The notes under the pieces were generated by a model. The model worked only from the letters and a program-made list of their open reading frames with translations, ran no database searches and had not been told where the DNA came from. Positions 22,284 through 44,553 of a stretch of DNA of 44,856 bases are shown here, piece after piece. The position numbers and the translations under genes were made by a program. The stretch comes from a virus, in the IMG/VR virus record IMGVR_UViG_3300009164_000131, positions 1 to 44,856 of that record. The stretch is one strand, 5' to 3'. The number at the start of each line of letters is the position of its first letter. Position 1 is the stretch's first letter.

Positions 22284-22358
22284 ACTCGGTTCGTCTATCG
22301 GTTAGGACATACGGTTTTCATCCGTATAAGAGCAGTTCAATTCTGCTACCGAGTACCA
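22284..22358 (+). tRNA. tRNA-Glu (UUC)
   Basis: A seven-bp acceptor stem ACTCGGT / ACCGAGT, anticodon stem ATACGG/CCGTAT with loop TTTTCAT (anticodon TTC), T arm GCAG-TTCAATT-CTGC and an encoded ACCA end. It decodes GAA/GAG. Confidence 0.93.
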
Positions 22359-22360
22359 GA

Positions 22361-22585
22361 TTTAATTACATTGGTTACCAAACCAGTAGGTAATTTAGCA
22401 AGTGGATTCCAGTTGACGGACTGGCACTTCTAAGTTACACGAAAGATGGAAACGAAGCCGAAAGGTGGATACGGTGGTCACGCTGGAAGAATTGGCAAGT
22501 AATGTGTGCGAAAGACAAGTCCATGGACGGCATGGTAGGACAGGTTTAAAACTGTTGTTTCTTTCAAACATCCAGTGTAATTAAA
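22361..22585 (+). ncRNA. structured non-coding RNA A (unidentified)
   Basis: TTTAATTACATTGG (22361-22374) pairs with CCAGTGTAATTAAA (22572-22585), 14 bp with one G-U, closing the whole 225-nt segment. Inside are TTACC/GGTAA (22375-22393), a two-part hairpin AAGTG...CACTT with CCAGT/ACTGG (22400-22429), GAAA-containing loops and a GTCC/GGAC hairpin near 22519-22540. No ORF and no known family match from memory. It lies between tRNA genes in one transcript. Confidence 0.6.
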
Positions 22586-22590
22586 TGTGG

Positions 22591-22710
22591 TATTAGTTTA
22601 GCTGACGTAAGCCATTGAGTAAACGTCAACTCTCCGTAACCATATCAATAAACAGTAAACTCGAGTAAAGCTGTTGAGGTATAGCAAACAGTACGTCAGC
22701 TAAACTAATA
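22591..22710 (+). ncRNA. structured non-coding RNA B (unidentified)
   Basis: A perfect 19-bp inverted repeat, TATTAGTTTAGCTGACGTA at 22591-22609 and its complement at 22692-22710, closes an 82-nt interior. Inside, AACAG/CTGTT and GAGT/ACTC can form smaller hairpins. Only five bases separate it from RNA A, and tRNA-Asn begins six bases later. It lacks a T run and is not a simple terminator. Confidence 0.65.
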
Positions 22711-22716
22711 GTAAAT

Positions 22717-22792
22717 TGCCTTGTAGCTCAGTTGGTAGAGCAAATGACTGTTAATCATTGGGTCGCTGGTTCGAGCCCAGCCGAGGCAGCCA
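22717..22792 (+). tRNA. tRNA-Asn (GUU)
   Basis: Acceptor TGCCTTG / CGAGGCA with discriminator G and encoded CCA, D arm GCTCAGTTGGTAGAGC, anticodon loop CTGTTAA (anticodon GTT), T arm CTGG-TTCGAGC-CCAG. Confidence 0.96.
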
Positions 22793-22798
22793 TGACAT

Positions 22799-22874
22799 GC
22801 CCTCGTAGCTCATTTGGTAGAGCAACTGATTTGTAATCAGTAGGTGGTCAGTTCGAATCCGACCGAGGGCACCA
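22799..22874 (+). tRNA. tRNA-Thr (UGU)
   Basis: Acceptor GCCCTCG / CGAGGGC with encoded ACCA, D arm GCTCATTTGGTAGAGC, anticodon loop TTTGTAA (anticodon TGT), T loop TTCGAAT. Confidence 0.95.
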
Positions 22875-22886
22875 GTAAAGTATTAT

Positions 22887-22970
22887 GGAGAAGAAGCATC
22901 AATGGTGATGCAGTGGACTGTAAATCCGCCGACTTTGTCATGACTGGTTCGATCCCAGTATTCTCCACCA
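22887..22970 (+). tRNA. tRNA-Tyr (GUA), long variable arm
   Basis: Acceptor GGAGAAG / ATTCTCC with an A-G mismatch at the seventh pair and encoded ACCA, anticodon stem GTGGA/TCCGC with loop CTGTAAA (anticodon GTA), a long variable arm around GACTTTGTC and T arm ACTGG-TTCGATC-CCAGT. The class II shape is right for bacterial tRNA-Tyr. The D arm (GCATC/GATGC, AATGGT loop) is atypical. Confidence 0.88.
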
Positions 22971-33588: not shown

Positions 33589-34199
33589 TTACACAAGAAC
33601 AATTTGTTCACTTGTTTCCAAAAAACAAAAATGCCGAAGCATGGTCTAAAGCATTGAACGAGGTTCTTCCTACATATGAAATTAATAGTACAGAACGCAT
33701 TGCGGCATTTCTTGCGCAGTGCGGTCATGAATCTATGGGATTTACAGTGTTGCAGGAAAATCTTAATTATTCGGCAGAAGGTCTAACTAAAATATTTCAT
33801 AAGTATTTTCCAACATTAGAATCTGCGCAACCTTATGCTCGTCGACCAGAAATGATTGCGAATAAAGTTTACGCAAATCGTATGGGAAATAGTACTGAAG
33901 AATCTGGCGAGGGGTATCGCTACCGTGGTCGTGGACCGATTCAGTTGACTGGTAAGAGTAATTATACTGAGTGCTCGGATTTCTTATTTCAAGACGACAC
34001 TTTAATTAAAGACCCAGACATGCTTCTTGATCCAGAATATGCTTTACACTCTGCTTGTTGGTTCTGGTGGAAAAATGCCTTAAATAATTACGCAGACTCA
34101 GCTGATCTAGTTACAATGACAAAACGTATTAATGGTGGAACAATAGGATTGGATGATAGAATTAAACATTATAATGAAGCAATACATTTACTAGCATAA
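33585..34199 (+). CDS. endolysin, glycoside hydrolase family 19 (chitinase-like)
   Basis: The 204-residue protein shows the GH19 fold: LAQCGHESMGF with catalytic E49, then YRYRGRGPIQLTGKSNY and KRINGG near the end. Phage GH19 enzymes cut peptidoglycan. The start is 33585, overlapping the holin stop; an in-frame upstream extension has no family match. Confidence 0.92.
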   Translation: MITQEQFVHLFPKNKNAEAWSKALNEVLPTYEINSTERIAAFLAQCGHESMGFTVLQENLNYSAEGLTKIFHKYFPTLESAQPYARRPEMIANKVYANRMGNSTEESGEGYRYRGRGPIQLTGKSNYTECSDFLFQDDTLIKDPDMLLDPEYALHSACWFWWKNALNNYADSADLVTMTKRINGGTIGLDDRIKHYNEAIHLLA

Positions 34200-34852
34200 T
34201 GTTCAATCACATACATCATGATATACCAAAATTGGAACGTGTTACCGCAACCGATGGGACCAGAGTCTATAAAACTCCATCAGGTAAATCCTATCCAAGC
34301 GTTACCACAGTTACAGGATTGCTTAACAAACAGGCAATCAATGAGTGGAGAAAAAGAGTCGGAGAAGCAGAAGCAAACAGAATTAGTGGAACTGCCTCAA
34401 AACGTGGAACAAGAGTTCACTCCCTCTGCGAATCCTATCTCAATAACGAACATGTTGTCCCAGATTTATTTGATGCAGAAACTTTCCAAACTATAAAACC
34501 ACTCTTGAATAATATTCAAGACATTCATTGTTTAGAGACACCATTATATTCTGATCATTTAGAGATAGCTGGTACAGTTGATTGCATCGCTAAGTATAAT
34601 GGTAGAGTATCTGTAATTGATTTTAAAACATCTAAGCGGAAAAAGACTCGAGACAGTATTCAAAATTATTTTATGCAATGTTCTGCGTACGCTGTTGCGT
34701 TTGAAGAAAGAACTAACATACCAGTTGATAGACTTATCATTTTAATGACTGTCGATGATGAGGACGCAATAGTCTTTGAAGAAAAAAGAGATTCTTGGAT
34801 TGATTCATTTAAAGAATTAAGAAATAATTACAAGAAATTAAAAGGTATGTAA
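34199..34852 (+). CDS. PD-(D/E)XK exonuclease (MGME1/RecB-like)
   Basis: The 217-residue protein has SYPSVTTVTGLL, KRGTRVHSLCESYL, EIAGTVDCIAKYNGRVSVIDFKTSKRKK (the D...DxK core) and YFMQCSAYAVAFEE (QxxxY). This is the PD-(D/E)XK nuclease pattern of mitochondrial MGME1 and T4-like phage exonucleases. It likely degrades ssDNA ends in replication or recombination. It overlaps the endolysin by one base. Confidence 0.87.
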   Translation: MFNHIHHDIPKLERVTATDGTRVYKTPSGKSYPSVTTVTGLLNKQAINEWRKRVGEAEANRISGTASKRGTRVHSLCESYLNNEHVVPDLFDAETFQTIKPLLNNIQDIHCLETPLYSDHLEIAGTVDCIAKYNGRVSVIDFKTSKRKKTRDSIQNYFMQCSAYAVAFEERTNIPVDRLIILMTVDDEDAIVFEEKRDSWIDSFKELRNNYKKLKGM

Positions 34853-34904: not shown

Positions 34905-35057
34905 ATGAGTGAGATTGAAATTGAACTTTCTAAATGCAGAGATGCTGGTTCAGCTTCTTATACATATTTCTGGGTACAAGAAGGACGAACAATTAGTCCA
35001 TACTTTTCTTCCGAAAAAGAAGCACAGGATTGGCTACGTGAGAATGTAAAGTTTTAA
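34905..35057 (+). CDS. hypothetical small protein with YFW/ISP motif
   Basis: The 50-residue product reads SYTYFWVQEGRTISPYFSSEKEAQDWLREN, a motif shared with the N-terminus of the protein at 16783. The ATG lies near the predicted transcription start, so the mRNA may be nearly leaderless. Confidence 0.6.
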   Translation: MSEIEIELSKCRDAGSASYTYFWVQEGRTISPYFSSEKEAQDWLRENVKF

Positions 35058-35121
35058 AAATGGTAGTAAACTGATAAAGCGAAATCTAGGCAAGACGGGA
35101 GTGCGATTCTCCCCACCTCCA

Positions 35122-35209
35122 CCGAAGCATACTAGAATCCGTAAAACGATTAGGGCTGGTATCCCAGAGTCACTCAGAGAAACTCTAAAGTGCCATAGTA
35201 TGTTTCGGT
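35122..35209 (+). other. tmRNA intervening segment removed on processing
   Basis: This segment joins the two acceptor strands. Its ends (CCGAAGCATACTA and TAGTATGTTTCGG) extend the acceptor helix, and the middle has CTGG/CCAG and AGAGT/ACTCT hairpins. Removal would leave free 5' G35210 and 3' A35121. The genome has CCG rather than CCA after the discriminator, so CCA would have to be added by the host enzyme. Confidence 0.75.
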
Positions 35210-35346
35210 GGGGGTGACTAGTATCGATTGATAGCAAAGTAACTTTAGAGGCTACTCGGTAGGCGATGACCGTAAATCAAGCAAAAAACGTAACCGCAAA
35301 CGACGAAATGTTCGCATTAGCAGCTTAAACACTGCTTAGGGTTTTC

Positions 35347-35391
35347 GGTGGGTTTCCTCGTAACAGAATAACTCACCACGATTTATTTTTT
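35347..35391 (+). terminator. terminator-like hairpin after the tmRNA tag frame
   Basis: GGTGGGTT (35347-35354) pairs with AACTCACC (35370-35377, one G-U) and TTTATTTTTT follows within 15 nt. It may also be part of the tmRNA coding piece. Confidence 0.6.
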
Positions 35392-35411
35392 AAACAACAA
35401 AGAGGTCTAGA

Positions 35412-36128
35412 ATGAAAAGAAAATTATTAGCAGTTACACTTTTAATGGGCGCAACAATGGCTCATGCTGAATTAGCAGGAAATGTATCATTGACAAGTGA
35501 CTATCGGTTTCGTGGTGTTAGTCAAACTCAAAATGGTTTAGCAGTTCAGGGTGGTATTGATTATACCCATTCAAGTGGGTTATATGCTGGTAACTGGAAC
35601 AGTTCTGTTTCTAGTCAGGTCTACACAAATGGATCTGGAATTGAAAGTGACTTATATGCTGGATTTAAGAAAAAAGTTTTCAAGGATATTACAGTTGATG
35701 TTGGTACGATGAATTATTTCTACCCACAAGCAACAAATAATACTTCTAACAACTTTGATACTAACGAATTGTATGCAGGTGTTGCGTATAAAGAATTAGT
35801 AACAGCAAAATACAGTCAGTCTTTAAGCAACTATTTCGGTATTGCTAATAGTTCTGGAAGCACTTATATGCAGGCTGATGTAGCAGTTCCTGTATTTGGT
35901 AAGTTGACAGCAGTTGCTCATGCAGGTCGTACTGATGTTAACAACAGTGCTAAATTGAATTACACTGATTATAATGTCGGTGTTACGTATGACTTAAAAG
36001 GTTGGAACATTGGAGCCAAATATTATACAAACTCAAGCAAAGGTACTGGCTTTCAAACTGCCAATACAGTTAGTGGTGAGAAATTGTATAAAAATGCTGC
36101 AGTACTATCCGTCTCTAAAGCATTTTAA
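35412..36128 (+). CDS. outer-membrane beta-barrel protein (Gcw_chp/TIGR02001-like)
   Basis: The 238-residue protein has a signal peptide (MKRKLLAVTLLMGATMAHA) and a barrel-type alternating pattern ending in Phe. The start of the mature part (NVSLTSDYRFRGVSQTQNGLAVQGGIDY) matches the proteobacterial Gcw_chp family. It should sit in the host outer membrane. It lies just after the tmRNA. Host acquisition is probable because such proteins are bacterial in origin. Confidence 0.85.
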   Translation: MKRKLLAVTLLMGATMAHAELAGNVSLTSDYRFRGVSQTQNGLAVQGGIDYTHSSGLYAGNWNSSVSSQVYTNGSGIESDLYAGFKKKVFKDITVDVGTMNYFYPQATNNTSNNFDTNELYAGVAYKELVTAKYSQSLSNYFGIANSSGSTYMQADVAVPVFGKLTAVAHAGRTDVNNSAKLNYTDYNVGVTYDLKGWNIGAKYYTNSSKGTGFQTANTVSGEKLYKNAAVLSVSKAF

Positions 36129-36764: not shown

Positions 36765-37436
36765 TTGCCAAAAATAAAACTACAAATAATTATATCAACA
36801 ATAATAGCAGTCGCATTAATTGTTGCTGCAGTAACATATGATCACAAAAGACTACTCTTGATTAAAGCGTCATTCGTACAATTAACACCGACTGCGCAAA
36901 AAGAAGTAATGTGCCTTGCCGACAACATTTTATTTGAAGCAGGAAATGAACCACGAGATGGGCAGTTAGCAGTTGCAAGTGTTACATTAAATCGCCTCAA
37001 ATCTGGCAACTACGCAGATTCAATCTGTGGTGTTGTGAAACAAAAGACTGGAAAAACCTGTCAGTTCTCATGGTGGTGCGAAGACAAACCAAGAACAGCT
37101 TCTATTACAAGGAATTTGACAAATGGTCAATTTGCTTTATATAACTCTATATTAGACTTGGCAACATTTGCTTACTTAAATGCAGATAGAATAAAAGACG
37201 ACACCATGGGTGCAACTTATTACCATGCGGATTATGTAAATCCACATTGGAGGCATTTGAAAAAGACAGTACAAATCGGTAGGCATATATTTTATAAAAA
37301 TGGAGAAGTTGATGGCAAATATGATGAAAAAAATAAATCTGGCACTGGAGAAGGACAATCTGTCCCACTCGTATTTTTTACTAATGGAAGAGATTACAAT
37401 GTCTACTTGCAAACAAACTATAGAGTGGATTTTTGA
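36765..37436 (+). CDS. cell wall hydrolase (SleB/CwlJ family)
   Basis: The 223-residue protein begins with TTG after AAGAAAGG and has an N-terminal membrane anchor (IIISTIIAVALIVAAVTY). The hydrolase domain has ADNILFEAGNEPRDGQLAVASVTLNR with catalytic Glu58, then SWWCEDK and GATYYHADYVNPHW...IGRHIFY. It should cleave peptidoglycan. The family domain ends near residue 180; the remaining residues overlap the ClpP-like gene. Confidence 0.85.
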   Translation: MPKIKLQIIISTIIAVALIVAAVTYDHKRLLLIKASFVQLTPTAQKEVMCLADNILFEAGNEPRDGQLAVASVTLNRLKSGNYADSICGVVKQKTGKTCQFSWWCEDKPRTASITRNLTNGQFALYNSILDLATFAYLNADRIKDDTMGATYYHADYVNPHWRHLKKTVQIGRHIFYKNGEVDGKYDEKNKSGTGEGQSVPLVFFTNGRDYNVYLQTNYRVDF

Positions 37437-37878
37437 TTCTAATTTTGCTGAAGACCGACCAGAGGTATTAAATTTAATTATTTGCTCGCCAGGAGGTGAT
37501 CTTAATGCTTCCTTTGCAGTAATTGATACAATGCGTGGTAGCAAGATACCAATACATACGATTGGGCTTGGGCAGATTGCTTCCGCTGGATTGTTAATCT
37601 TTATTAGTGGTTTAAAGGGTAGTCGTGTTCTAACACCAAACACTTCTATTCTTTCCCACCAATATACATGGGGTGCTTTCGGTAAGGAACATGAACTGTT
37701 CGCAACCGTAAAAGAGTTTGATCTCACAACGAAACGACTCATTGCGCATTATAAAAAATGTACTGGAATGACTGAACCCCAAATTCGTGAAGTCCTTCTT
37801 CCTCCGCATGATGTGTGGCTTGATGCGCAGGAATCTAAGAAACTTGGTCTTTGCGATTTGGTAAAAGATCTTAAATAG
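37312..37878 (+). CDS. clpP: ClpP-like protease subunit
   Basis: The 188-residue protein has the ClpP core: LNLIICSPGGDLNASFAVIDTM, GLGQIASAGLLIF with nucleophile S91, ILSHQYTWG with H116 and a likely D167 in PPHDVWLDAQESKKLGL. It lacks the usual N-terminal loops that contact ClpX, as in other phage ClpPs. The ATG at 37312 follows GGAGAAGTTG. It overlaps the SleB gene by 125 bases. It lies about 2 kb from the phage tmRNA, whose ALAA tags are ClpXP substrates. Confidence 0.85.
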   Translation: MANMMKKINLALEKDNLSHSYFLLMEEITMSTCKQTIEWIFDSNFAEDRPEVLNLIICSPGGDLNASFAVIDTMRGSKIPIHTIGLGQIASAGLLIFISGLKGSRVLTPNTSILSHQYTWGAFGKEHELFATVKEFDLTTKRLIAHYKKCTGMTEPQIREVLLPPHDVWLDAQESKKLGLCDLVKDLK

Positions 37879-42245: not shown

Positions 42246-42269
42246 AGCCACCTTCGGGTGGCTTTTTTT
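42246..42269. terminator. terminator between convergent gp32 and tape-measure genes
   Basis: AGCCACC-TTCG-GGTGGCT is a seven-bp stem with a UUCG-type tetraloop, followed by seven T residues on the plus strand. It sits where plus-strand and minus-strand genes meet. Confidence 0.9.
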
Positions 42270-44553
42270 ATGTTCCGTATCTTTGTGCCAGCTGACGTCG
42301 AACACCTTCATCAGGATTACGAACACGTGGCTTCATTGCGTAAGTAGTAGAACTACTATTATTAACATTGCTTGTTGGGGCAATAACAGTACTTGATTGA
42401 GATGGTTGAACAGTCTTAGCCATCTCACTGTCTGCAGACTGAGAAGCAACTTGATTACCTACCTGTGGTTCATATGGCGCAAGTTTAGCAGAAGCACCGC
42501 CAGAAGCAATTTGCTTTAATTTTTCCACACCACCAAATGATTCTATGTCTCGTTTGCTACCATTCTCCAAAATGTTCTGCGCTTCTTTAGGACTTATGCT
42601 AGACTTAGACATATCCTGATTCGCAACTGTCTTAGGTGCATTGTCTTTTGGTGTTACTGATTCAACTTTCGTATCGACACCTGACTCTGGTGCTTTCTCT
42701 TCTTTCTTAAAGGGATACCATGGTCCGAATTTCTTCTTAAAACTTCCTATACCAATTTCAAATCCTGGAATCTCTAGATTTTCAAACCATCCCATTATAT
42801 CACTGAATAGTTTCTTGATTAAATCAATTGGAGCAAATACCGCATTAATAAATTTCTTAAATATATCTTCTAGTGAGAATGACTCTAGCATTTCTTTGGC
42901 TTTATCGAAACCGAAGAAACCAAGAACCCATGCGATTGCATCTTTCAGCATATCAAGTGGACCGAAGATTAACGAATTGAAGAAGCCAGTGATAGCACCT
43001 TTAATACCACCAATAATACCTTCTTCCTTGAATCCTTCAATGATTCCCTTAACTGTATCCCATACTGTCATAATAATAAGTACTGGAAACATTAATTTTC
43101 CTACAATTCCTGCTACTTTGCCAACAGTCTTTGCAAATGCACTGAAATATTCTTTGATAAGAGTGAAGACACCCTCAACCATTTTTACTGGACCTTTTAA
43201 TAAGTCTGCTATGACTTCATAGGCTGTTACAAATGGTTTAATGAAGCTACTCATTGCTTCTTTAATAGTCGCAAATACTTTTCCAATTTTAGACTCGCCA
43301 CTAAAATCGAAAAGTGACTTAAATTTACTAAAAATACCTGAGAAGAATTCTTCAACTGCAGAGAATCCTTTCTTAATCTTTTCCATTAATTCAGTTGGTA
43401 TCAATGCATCTGCGAACAACTTAATTGTCTTGACCCATGCACGTGCTAGACCAACAATTGATCCAACAATACCCGCAAGGATAGTTCCAATGATACCAAT
43501 ACCCATACCTTCTTTAGGTGTCTCTGGTTTATTGCCAATCGGTTTCTTAAGAGATGATGTATTGTCTGCGATTTCTTGTAGAATTTTTGTTTGCGTGTCG
43601 TCTATTTTCTGTTGCTCAACTTCAGCTTCAGTCATATCCGCTGCACCTAAACCAGAAGACTGTTTAGTTTTCCCTGGAAACTTTAGAACATTGGCTGGTA
43701 ATTGTGACTCAGCAATCTTTTCTGCTTTTACTTTCTTAATGTCTTTTGCTTTTATAACAGTAGAGTTTGGGTCTGTGTTGTTAACTCCACCAAACGATTC
43801 ACTAAACCGCACATCTGTTTTTGCTAATTCTTTTTCTAGTGTTTGATTCTTTGCATAGAAACCACCACGTTTGATCTGCCCTTCTTTGAAGCCACGATCT
43901 TTTAATCCCTTGACCTCTTCTTCATTCTTGAGTATCTCTTTTTGTATTTTTTCTGACTTATCAAATGTTTTACCAAAACTCTTTTCATCCCCAAAGGTGC
44001 TACCCTTTGTGGCTATTCTATCTTTAACATACTGCTGTTTTCTTTCTGCGTAGTCTTTCTTCTCAGCATCTGCCTGAAGACTTTTTTGTTCTCTATTGCC
44101 GAGCATTTTATCAATTCCACGTCCAACAGCGGTATCACTATGCCCTCGTTTAAGAATACCAGTCTTATCTAAGAATCCACGTGCAGTAAAGAAGTCTTTT
44201 ATTCCTGTCGGTGGAGCTATATCTCCTGGCTTGCCAGTTTGTGCCATACCCATTACCTTTTGAGTAATCGCTCCAGGCTTAGACCCACTGTCAAGTGTAG
44301 TCTTTAGTTTTTTCAGTTGCTTTGATAGTTCGCCTTTATCACCAAGACCTTCACCAATGGTTTTATTGAGTTTTTGTAACTCGATAATTTGCTTATTAGC
44401 AAAGTCTACATAAACAACATTACCTTCTCTGGATAGAGATTCTAATCTAGACGTACCTGATCCACCAAGTGCATTAGTGTCTTGTACTTTCTGTTTGTCT
44501 AATAATTGTTTCATTTGTTGTTTTGCATCCTTTGTTTTTCTTCTTCTAACCAT
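42268..44553 (-). CDS. tail tape-measure / baseplate hub-associated protein (T4 gp29-like position)
   Basis: The 761-residue protein is coiled-coil and charged in the first 330 residues, has several hydrophobic helices from about 345 to 600 (GIIGTILAGIVGSIVGLARAW, VAGIVGKLMFPVLIIMTVWD, GAITGFFNSLIFGPLDML) and a flexible Ser/Thr-rich C-terminus. This is the layout of phage tail tape-measure proteins, which set tail length. It follows gp26- and gp51-like genes, where T4 places gp29, so position and architecture agree. Its direct sequence link to T4 gp29 cannot be shown from here. Confidence 0.75.
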   Translation of the reverse strand: MVRRRKTKDAKQQMKQLLDKQKVQDTNALGGSGTSRLESLSREGNVVYVDFANKQIIELQKLNKTIGEGLGDKGELSKQLKKLKTTLDSGSKPGAITQKVMGMAQTGKPGDIAPPTGIKDFFTARGFLDKTGILKRGHSDTAVGRGIDKMLGNREQKSLQADAEKKDYAERKQQYVKDRIATKGSTFGDEKSFGKTFDKSEKIQKEILKNEEEVKGLKDRGFKEGQIKRGGFYAKNQTLEKELAKTDVRFSESFGGVNNTDPNSTVIKAKDIKKVKAEKIAESQLPANVLKFPGKTKQSSGLGAADMTEAEVEQQKIDDTQTKILQEIADNTSSLKKPIGNKPETPKEGMGIGIIGTILAGIVGSIVGLARAWVKTIKLFADALIPTELMEKIKKGFSAVEEFFSGIFSKFKSLFDFSGESKIGKVFATIKEAMSSFIKPFVTAYEVIADLLKGPVKMVEGVFTLIKEYFSAFAKTVGKVAGIVGKLMFPVLIIMTVWDTVKGIIEGFKEEGIIGGIKGAITGFFNSLIFGPLDMLKDAIAWVLGFFGFDKAKEMLESFSLEDIFKKFINAVFAPIDLIKKLFSDIMGWFENLEIPGFEIGIGSFKKKFGPWYPFKKEEKAPESGVDTKVESVTPKDNAPKTVANQDMSKSSISPKEAQNILENGSKRDIESFGGVEKLKQIASGGASAKLAPYEPQVGNQVASQSADSEMAKTVQPSQSSTVIAPTSNVNNSSSTTYAMKPRVRNPDEGVRRQLAQRYGT

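Follow-up and report, generated by a model that had tools for sequence, protein, structure and literature searches.

A predicted circularly permuted tmRNA gene of beta type at a conserved locus of T4-like phages

Anatomy of the locus

The window, by which we mean the whole 44,856-bp IMG/VR virus record analysed here, has T4-like phage gene content, with genes for DNA primase, NrdA, NrdB, DNA ligase, an exonuclease, a clamp-loader-like protein, PhoH, the gp59 helicase loader and gp32, as well as a set of four tRNA genes, for Glu, Asn, Thr and Tyr, at 22284-22970. Upstream of gp59 and gp32 lies a gene for a tmRNA, the RNA that rescues stalled ribosomes and marks their incomplete proteins for degradation. 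The features of this region are as follows.

34199-34852, + strand: PD-(D/E)XK exonuclease gene, upstream of the tmRNA and syntenic in phage Melnitz
35062-35123, + strand: acceptor piece (5' arm of P2, T arm, 3' acceptor strand, discriminator A, CC), from the start of the RF04321 match and the sequence
35097-35113, + strand: T arm with G, not U, at tRNA position 55 (sequence; D-loop covariation), consisting of T stem GGGAG (35097-35101), T loop UGCGAUU (35102-35108) and T stem CUCCC (35109-35113)
35114-35120, + strand: 3' acceptor strand CACCUCC, which carries U70 of the G3-U70 pair (sequence)
35121 and 35122-35123, + strand: discriminator A, then CC; the next base is G, leaving CCA incompletely encoded (sequence)
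35124-35209, + strand: intervening segment of 86 nt, predicted to be removed on maturation
35210-35216, + strand: 5' acceptor strand GGGGGUG (sequence and covariance-model alignment); an RNase P cut is expected immediately 5' of 35210
35217-35228, + strand: D loop ACUAGUAUCGAU, with AG where U55-type tmRNAs carry GG (sequence parse)
35296-35328, + strand: tag reading frame ANDEMFALAA with its stop (translation)
35329-35395, + strand: 3' part of the coding piece, with a hairpin and T-rich run, the probable 3' end (RF01850 match to 35385)
35412-36128, + strand: gene for a secreted-type Gcw_chp protein (PF09694), just downstream of the tmRNA
37300-37878, + strand: gene for a phage ClpP-family protease (PF00574, 2e-27)

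As a first-pass annotation of the letters had proposed, the T arm and 3' acceptor strand lie 5' of the 5' acceptor strand, and the two strands, in reversed gene order, pair at 7/7 positions. One of these pairs is G3-U70. Together with the ends of the intervening segment, the acceptor stem forms a 21-bp precursor helix (35114-35134 with 35196-35216) in which just two of the pairs are G-U, again in agreement with that annotation; the helix was recovered by a repeat search and in the minimum free energy (MFE) fold (-69.9 kcal/mol, z = -3.2, 0/200 shuffles equally low). Translation bore out the suggested tag frame (GCA AAC GAC GAA ATG TTC GCA TTA GCA GCT TAA), with the stop codon present and the ClpX-type LAA tail kept. 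Further 3', a hairpin of 8 bp (35347-35354 with 35370-35377) was found by eye, its loop exceeding the limit of the terminator scan, and a sigma-70 promoter scan gave counts close to those of shuffled sequence. When P2 arms were swapped between tmRNAs, the window's own arms gave -10.3 kcal/mol, against means of -8.3 kcal/mol for its 5' arm with the 3' arms of others and -12.4 kcal/mol for the 5' arms of others with its 3' arm, so that the copy was not separated from its swapped partners.

Two neighbouring reading frames were noted in passing. The Gcw_chp protein has a signal-like N terminus and relatives in few phage records; in L010, too, such a gene adjoins a tmRNA. A 761-aa ORF on the minus strand (42268-44553) weakly matches families that are unknown or of tail tape-measure type, and in Melnitz a long ORF likewise runs on the minus strand beyond the 3' side of gp32.

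Detection and class assignment

With E-values computed over the whole window, RF04321 (tmRNA_permuted) matched 35062-35328 in permuted order and over model positions 1-213 of 213 (125.8 bits, E = 2.4e-24, gathering score 47), and RF01850 (beta_tmRNA) matched 35011-35385, likewise in permuted order (109.7 bits, E = 1.2e-32, gathering score 84). RF01849 (alpha_tmRNA) also exceeded its gathering score (73.7 bits, against 50), and RF01851 (cyano_tmRNA) fell below its own (19.1 bits, against 70), which ranks the subtypes beta, alpha, cyano. These results, on a T4-like phage contig, support the earlier claim of a phage-encoded, circularly permuted tmRNA gene, the product of which would consist of two mature RNA pieces. 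ARAGORN called no tmRNA at the window locus, and did call those of L002-L005 and L010. Since this copy is invisible to the program, surveys that rely on ARAGORN may underestimate the number of two-piece tmRNAs in phages.

Host and origin

The virus is one of aquatic bacteria, and its host is most likely a betaproteobacterium, because of the tmRNA subtype, the likeness to phage Melnitz, which infects Methylophilales sp. H5P1 of the OM43 group, and the window tRNA-Tyr, which is 86% like its counterpart in Limnohabitans phage DC31. When isolates are compared by gp32, Melnitz and marine cyanophages come closest, with 51-53% identity. The suggestion that the tmRNA would point to the host lineage holds in part: the best-scoring subtype is betaproteobacterial. 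As a host fingerprint the tag is uninformative, since the bacterial genomes searched contain no exact codon-degenerate match to ANDEMFALAA that ends in TAA. The same tag recurs in a second phage (L206), the rest of whose tmRNA differs from that of the window. The window sits on a long branch of the tmRNA tree (0.23 changes per column). The idea that the gene was recently copied from one of the sampled hosts was considered and rejected, as the window branches apart from 16 clustered host sequences in this short alignment of low resolution.

A coordinated D-loop and T-loop pair

Across about 55 phage and 46 bacterial tmRNAs, U at T-loop base 55 always occurs with GG in the D loop, and G55 always with AG; the D-loop partner of base 55 would be position 18, named by tRNA convention. 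Of 53 classified phage sequences, the U55/GG class comprises 41 parsed tmRNAs and one assigned by eye (L177). The G55/AG class, which includes the window, comprises 8 parsed and 3 assigned by eye, in which the D loop is one base longer. The rule is obeyed by 46/46 bacterial permuted tmRNAs (17 U55/GG and 29 G55/AG) and by the tmRNA of Melnitz. G3-U70 is present in every parsed phage tmRNA, and the remaining acceptor pairs are of several types. The window lacks the U55/GG found in 17 of 18 sampled beta genes and carries G55/AG, which is otherwise alpha-typical; its sequence combines a scaffold of beta type with a loop pair like that of alpha genes. Such coordinated changes in the two loops argue for an RNA that is under selection and not decaying.

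A fixed locus shared with a phage ClpP gene

The tmRNA gene marks a clade of T4-like phages in IMG/VR, in which it occupies one fixed locus upstream of ClpP, gp59 and gp32. RF04321 matched 30/50 contigs fetched by ClpP and 22/50 fetched by gp32, many of the non-matching contigs being fragments. In every relative having both genes, the tmRNA sits 1.4-2.9 kb upstream of ClpP. Contigs of the former set were chosen on ClpP, and the association was drawn only from the gp32 sample, in which 29 loci had at least 7.5 kb upstream. Both tmRNA and ClpP were present at 21 of these, neither at 6, a divergent ClpP only at 2, and a tmRNA only at 0 (hand-worked hypergeometric p of about 6e-5, for phages that are related and not independent). 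The window ClpP keeps the triad Ser95-His120-Asp171 with ClpP spacing, when aligned with PDB ClpP sequences. Three loci (L096, L100 and L169) have a ClpP of divergent type (24-31% identity) in the same position downstream of the tmRNA, which looks like one ClpP type substituted for another.

The first-pass annotation had called a phage with its own two-piece tmRNA unusual, and phage tmRNAs rarer. This was overstated, given the 21/29 gp32-anchored relatives with one at the same locus and the 53 two-piece cases published among 402 tmRNA-bearing phage genomes in a 2021 census, 50 of these 53 being marine or aquatic (PMC9004378). The linkage between tmRNA and ClpP looks undescribed; a search of PMC full texts for phage tmRNA with ClpP returned nothing relevant beyond PMC9004378.

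Small genes nested in the tmRNA genes of relatives

Intervening segments of phage tmRNA genes span 14-348 nt, with a median of 89 (45 different segments, Melnitz included), and those parsed from bacteria 5-48 nt, with one of 116 nt. The 86-nt segment of the window holds no ORF. Among phage segments of at least 138 nt, 10/11 are filled by an ATG frame covering 86-93% of their length and starting 11-21 nt past the CC end, an arrangement reached by at most 7 of 300 shuffles in each case. The nested ORFs of relatives span 41-108 codons, and nested genes within their tmRNA genes are well supported. ORF-filled segments were seen in L172-L175, L189, L196, L213, L215, L218 and L221, as well as in Melnitz (L360:10079-10217), and the frames are often preceded by a Shine-Dalgarno-like AAGGA or GGAG.

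Five of the ten nested ORFs form one 41-aa family of putative membrane proteins. By codon comparison this family is under purifying selection, with dN/dS of about 0.05-0.2 where dS was measurable (many pairs being saturated at silent sites) and 0.44 for a near-identical pair. An unbiased search placed the family inside tmRNA genes at 12 loci (11 by parser and L309 by eye), and in several others (L314-L317, L319, L320 and L331) it ends just upstream of the tmRNA. With its GYW-Y-L-TYDW core, it is placed inside or upstream of the tmRNA as if mobile around the locus; when nested, its TGA stop is immediately followed by the 5' acceptor strand. Near-identical intervening segments also recur within otherwise different tmRNA genes (L176/L183/L210; L185/L199/L202; L192/L209/L214), which suggests segment exchange between phages by recombination.

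Small genes nested in the excised segment appear not to have been described previously. A search of PMC full texts for ORFs in permuted tmRNA yielded no relevant paper other than PMC9004378. What has been reported from intervening sequences, in two permuted genes of bacteria or archaea, is a tRNA gene and a repeat, not ORFs (PMC11915505).

Proposed function and alternative explanations

We consider it very probable that the circularly permuted tmRNA gene of the window works and belongs to a lytic T4-like phage, most likely one of a betaproteobacterium, because of the permuted covariance-model matches, G3-U70, the loop pair, the clade-wide locus, the synteny with Melnitz, the intact LAA tag and the ClpP linkage. 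The anatomy of the gene, its conservation, its locus and the ClpP linkage are observed directly; processing, charging, tagging and benefit to the phage we infer as follows. In the fold of the single transcript, the acceptor stem would run on into the paired ends of the intervening segment as one unbroken 21-bp helix. Host RNase P would cleave just 5' of 35210, and the end after 35123 would be completed by the 3' processing enzymes of the host and by CCA addition, yielding two RNAs that stay joined at P2 and at the acceptor stem. The RNA would be charged by alanyl-tRNA synthetase via G3-U70, and host SmpB would bring it to ribosomes stalled on broken mRNA, where ANDEMFALAA would be added; SmpB must come from the host, since SmpB (PF01668) had no match in the window, which is a fragment. 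The tagged protein would be degraded by host ClpXP, possibly with the phage ClpP encoded 2 kb downstream, and the phage would gain from ribosomes and amino acids recycled during the destruction of host mRNA.

Against a working gene stand the ARAGORN miss, the long branch, the absence of SmpB and the P2 swap without separation. The first two, together with the non-consensus D and T loops, would fit a host tmRNA that the phage acquired and that is now decaying or a pseudogene. We hold this to be quite improbable, as the loop changes are coordinated and obey the rule of 46 bacterial tmRNAs, the tag frame and the precursor helix are intact, as is the acceptor stem with its G3-U70 pair, and the locus is kept in many relatives. 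Slightly less credible still is the idea that the RNA acts as a decoy, binding SmpB or the ribosome so as to block trans-translation in the host instead of performing it. A precedent exists in the tag-less tmRNA-like RNA of phage DS6A, reported to inhibit endogenous tmRNA (PMC11915505), but the window gene has a full tag frame with its stop, G3-U70 and a resume region, all of them needless for a decoy, and the tags of phage relatives are varied yet LAA-type.

Whether ClpP acts with the tmRNA is a separate matter. The chances seem about even that it is a head-maturation protease unrelated to the tmRNA, the two being neighbours only through the conserved gene order of the clade. The best PHROGs match of the window ClpP is a head maturation protease family, related phages are non-independent samples, a divergent ClpP occurs at two loci that lack a tmRNA, and in Melnitz no ClpP was recognised within the 26 kb read on either side of its tmRNA taken together. 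On the other hand, the Pfam match is to Clp_protease (2e-27), the gene sits among replication genes and not beside capsid genes in the window, and no gp32-anchored locus has a tmRNA without ClpP, even where ClpP is divergent. A wider reading that builds on a working tmRNA is one we offer only tentatively and think rather unlikely: the locus would be a cassette in which the RNA tags proteins, the downstream phage ClpP helps to destroy them, and the excised segment serves as a slot for small genes, the working link to ClpP being its uncertain step.

Trans-translation in phages is poorly understood, and the fixed tmRNA-ClpP neighbourhood in a large aquatic T4-like group makes a tag-and-degrade pathway of the phage's own directly testable. 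The nested genes pose the question of how the same transcript is both processed to tmRNA and translated.

Comparison with known systems

The closest known counterpart is the two-piece tmRNA of phage Melnitz (MZ577097; PMC9004378), likewise a T4-like phage with a permuted tmRNA, in the syntenic order PhoH, PDDEXK nuclease, tmRNA, gp59 and gp32. The Melnitz tmRNA is of alpha type (RF01849, 106.7 bits), whereas that of the window is of beta type, and its tag has 14 aa instead of the ten of ANDEMFALAA. Its intervening segment is 143 nt long and open as an ORF, in contrast to the shorter, ORF-free one of the window. A glutamine riboswitch lies just downstream of the Melnitz tmRNA, but an Rfam scan of the window found no riboswitch beside the tmRNA. 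ClpP, present in the window, was not recognised in the part of Melnitz read; gene 78, placed after a cell wall hydrolase, was considered as a candidate and rejected, having no Pfam match.

Among bacterial systems, the betaproteobacterial RF01850 genes (e.g. of Rhodocyclaceae) share with the window the gene order, the tRNA-like domain, G3-U70 and a tag of ANDE..LAA type. The sampled ones carry U55/GG (one has G55/AG) and segments of 5-43 nt, compared with G55/AG and 86 nt in the window. Alphaproteobacterial RF01849 genes of the Caulobacter type resemble the window in combining G55 with a D-loop AG, but have a T loop of GGCGGUA or GGCAGUA instead of UGCGAUU and tags of ANDN.. type, and the alpha model scores lower on the window than the beta model. 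The window tmRNA is a further two-piece phage tmRNA, of the beta subtype, and joins a set of such phage genes that is already known.
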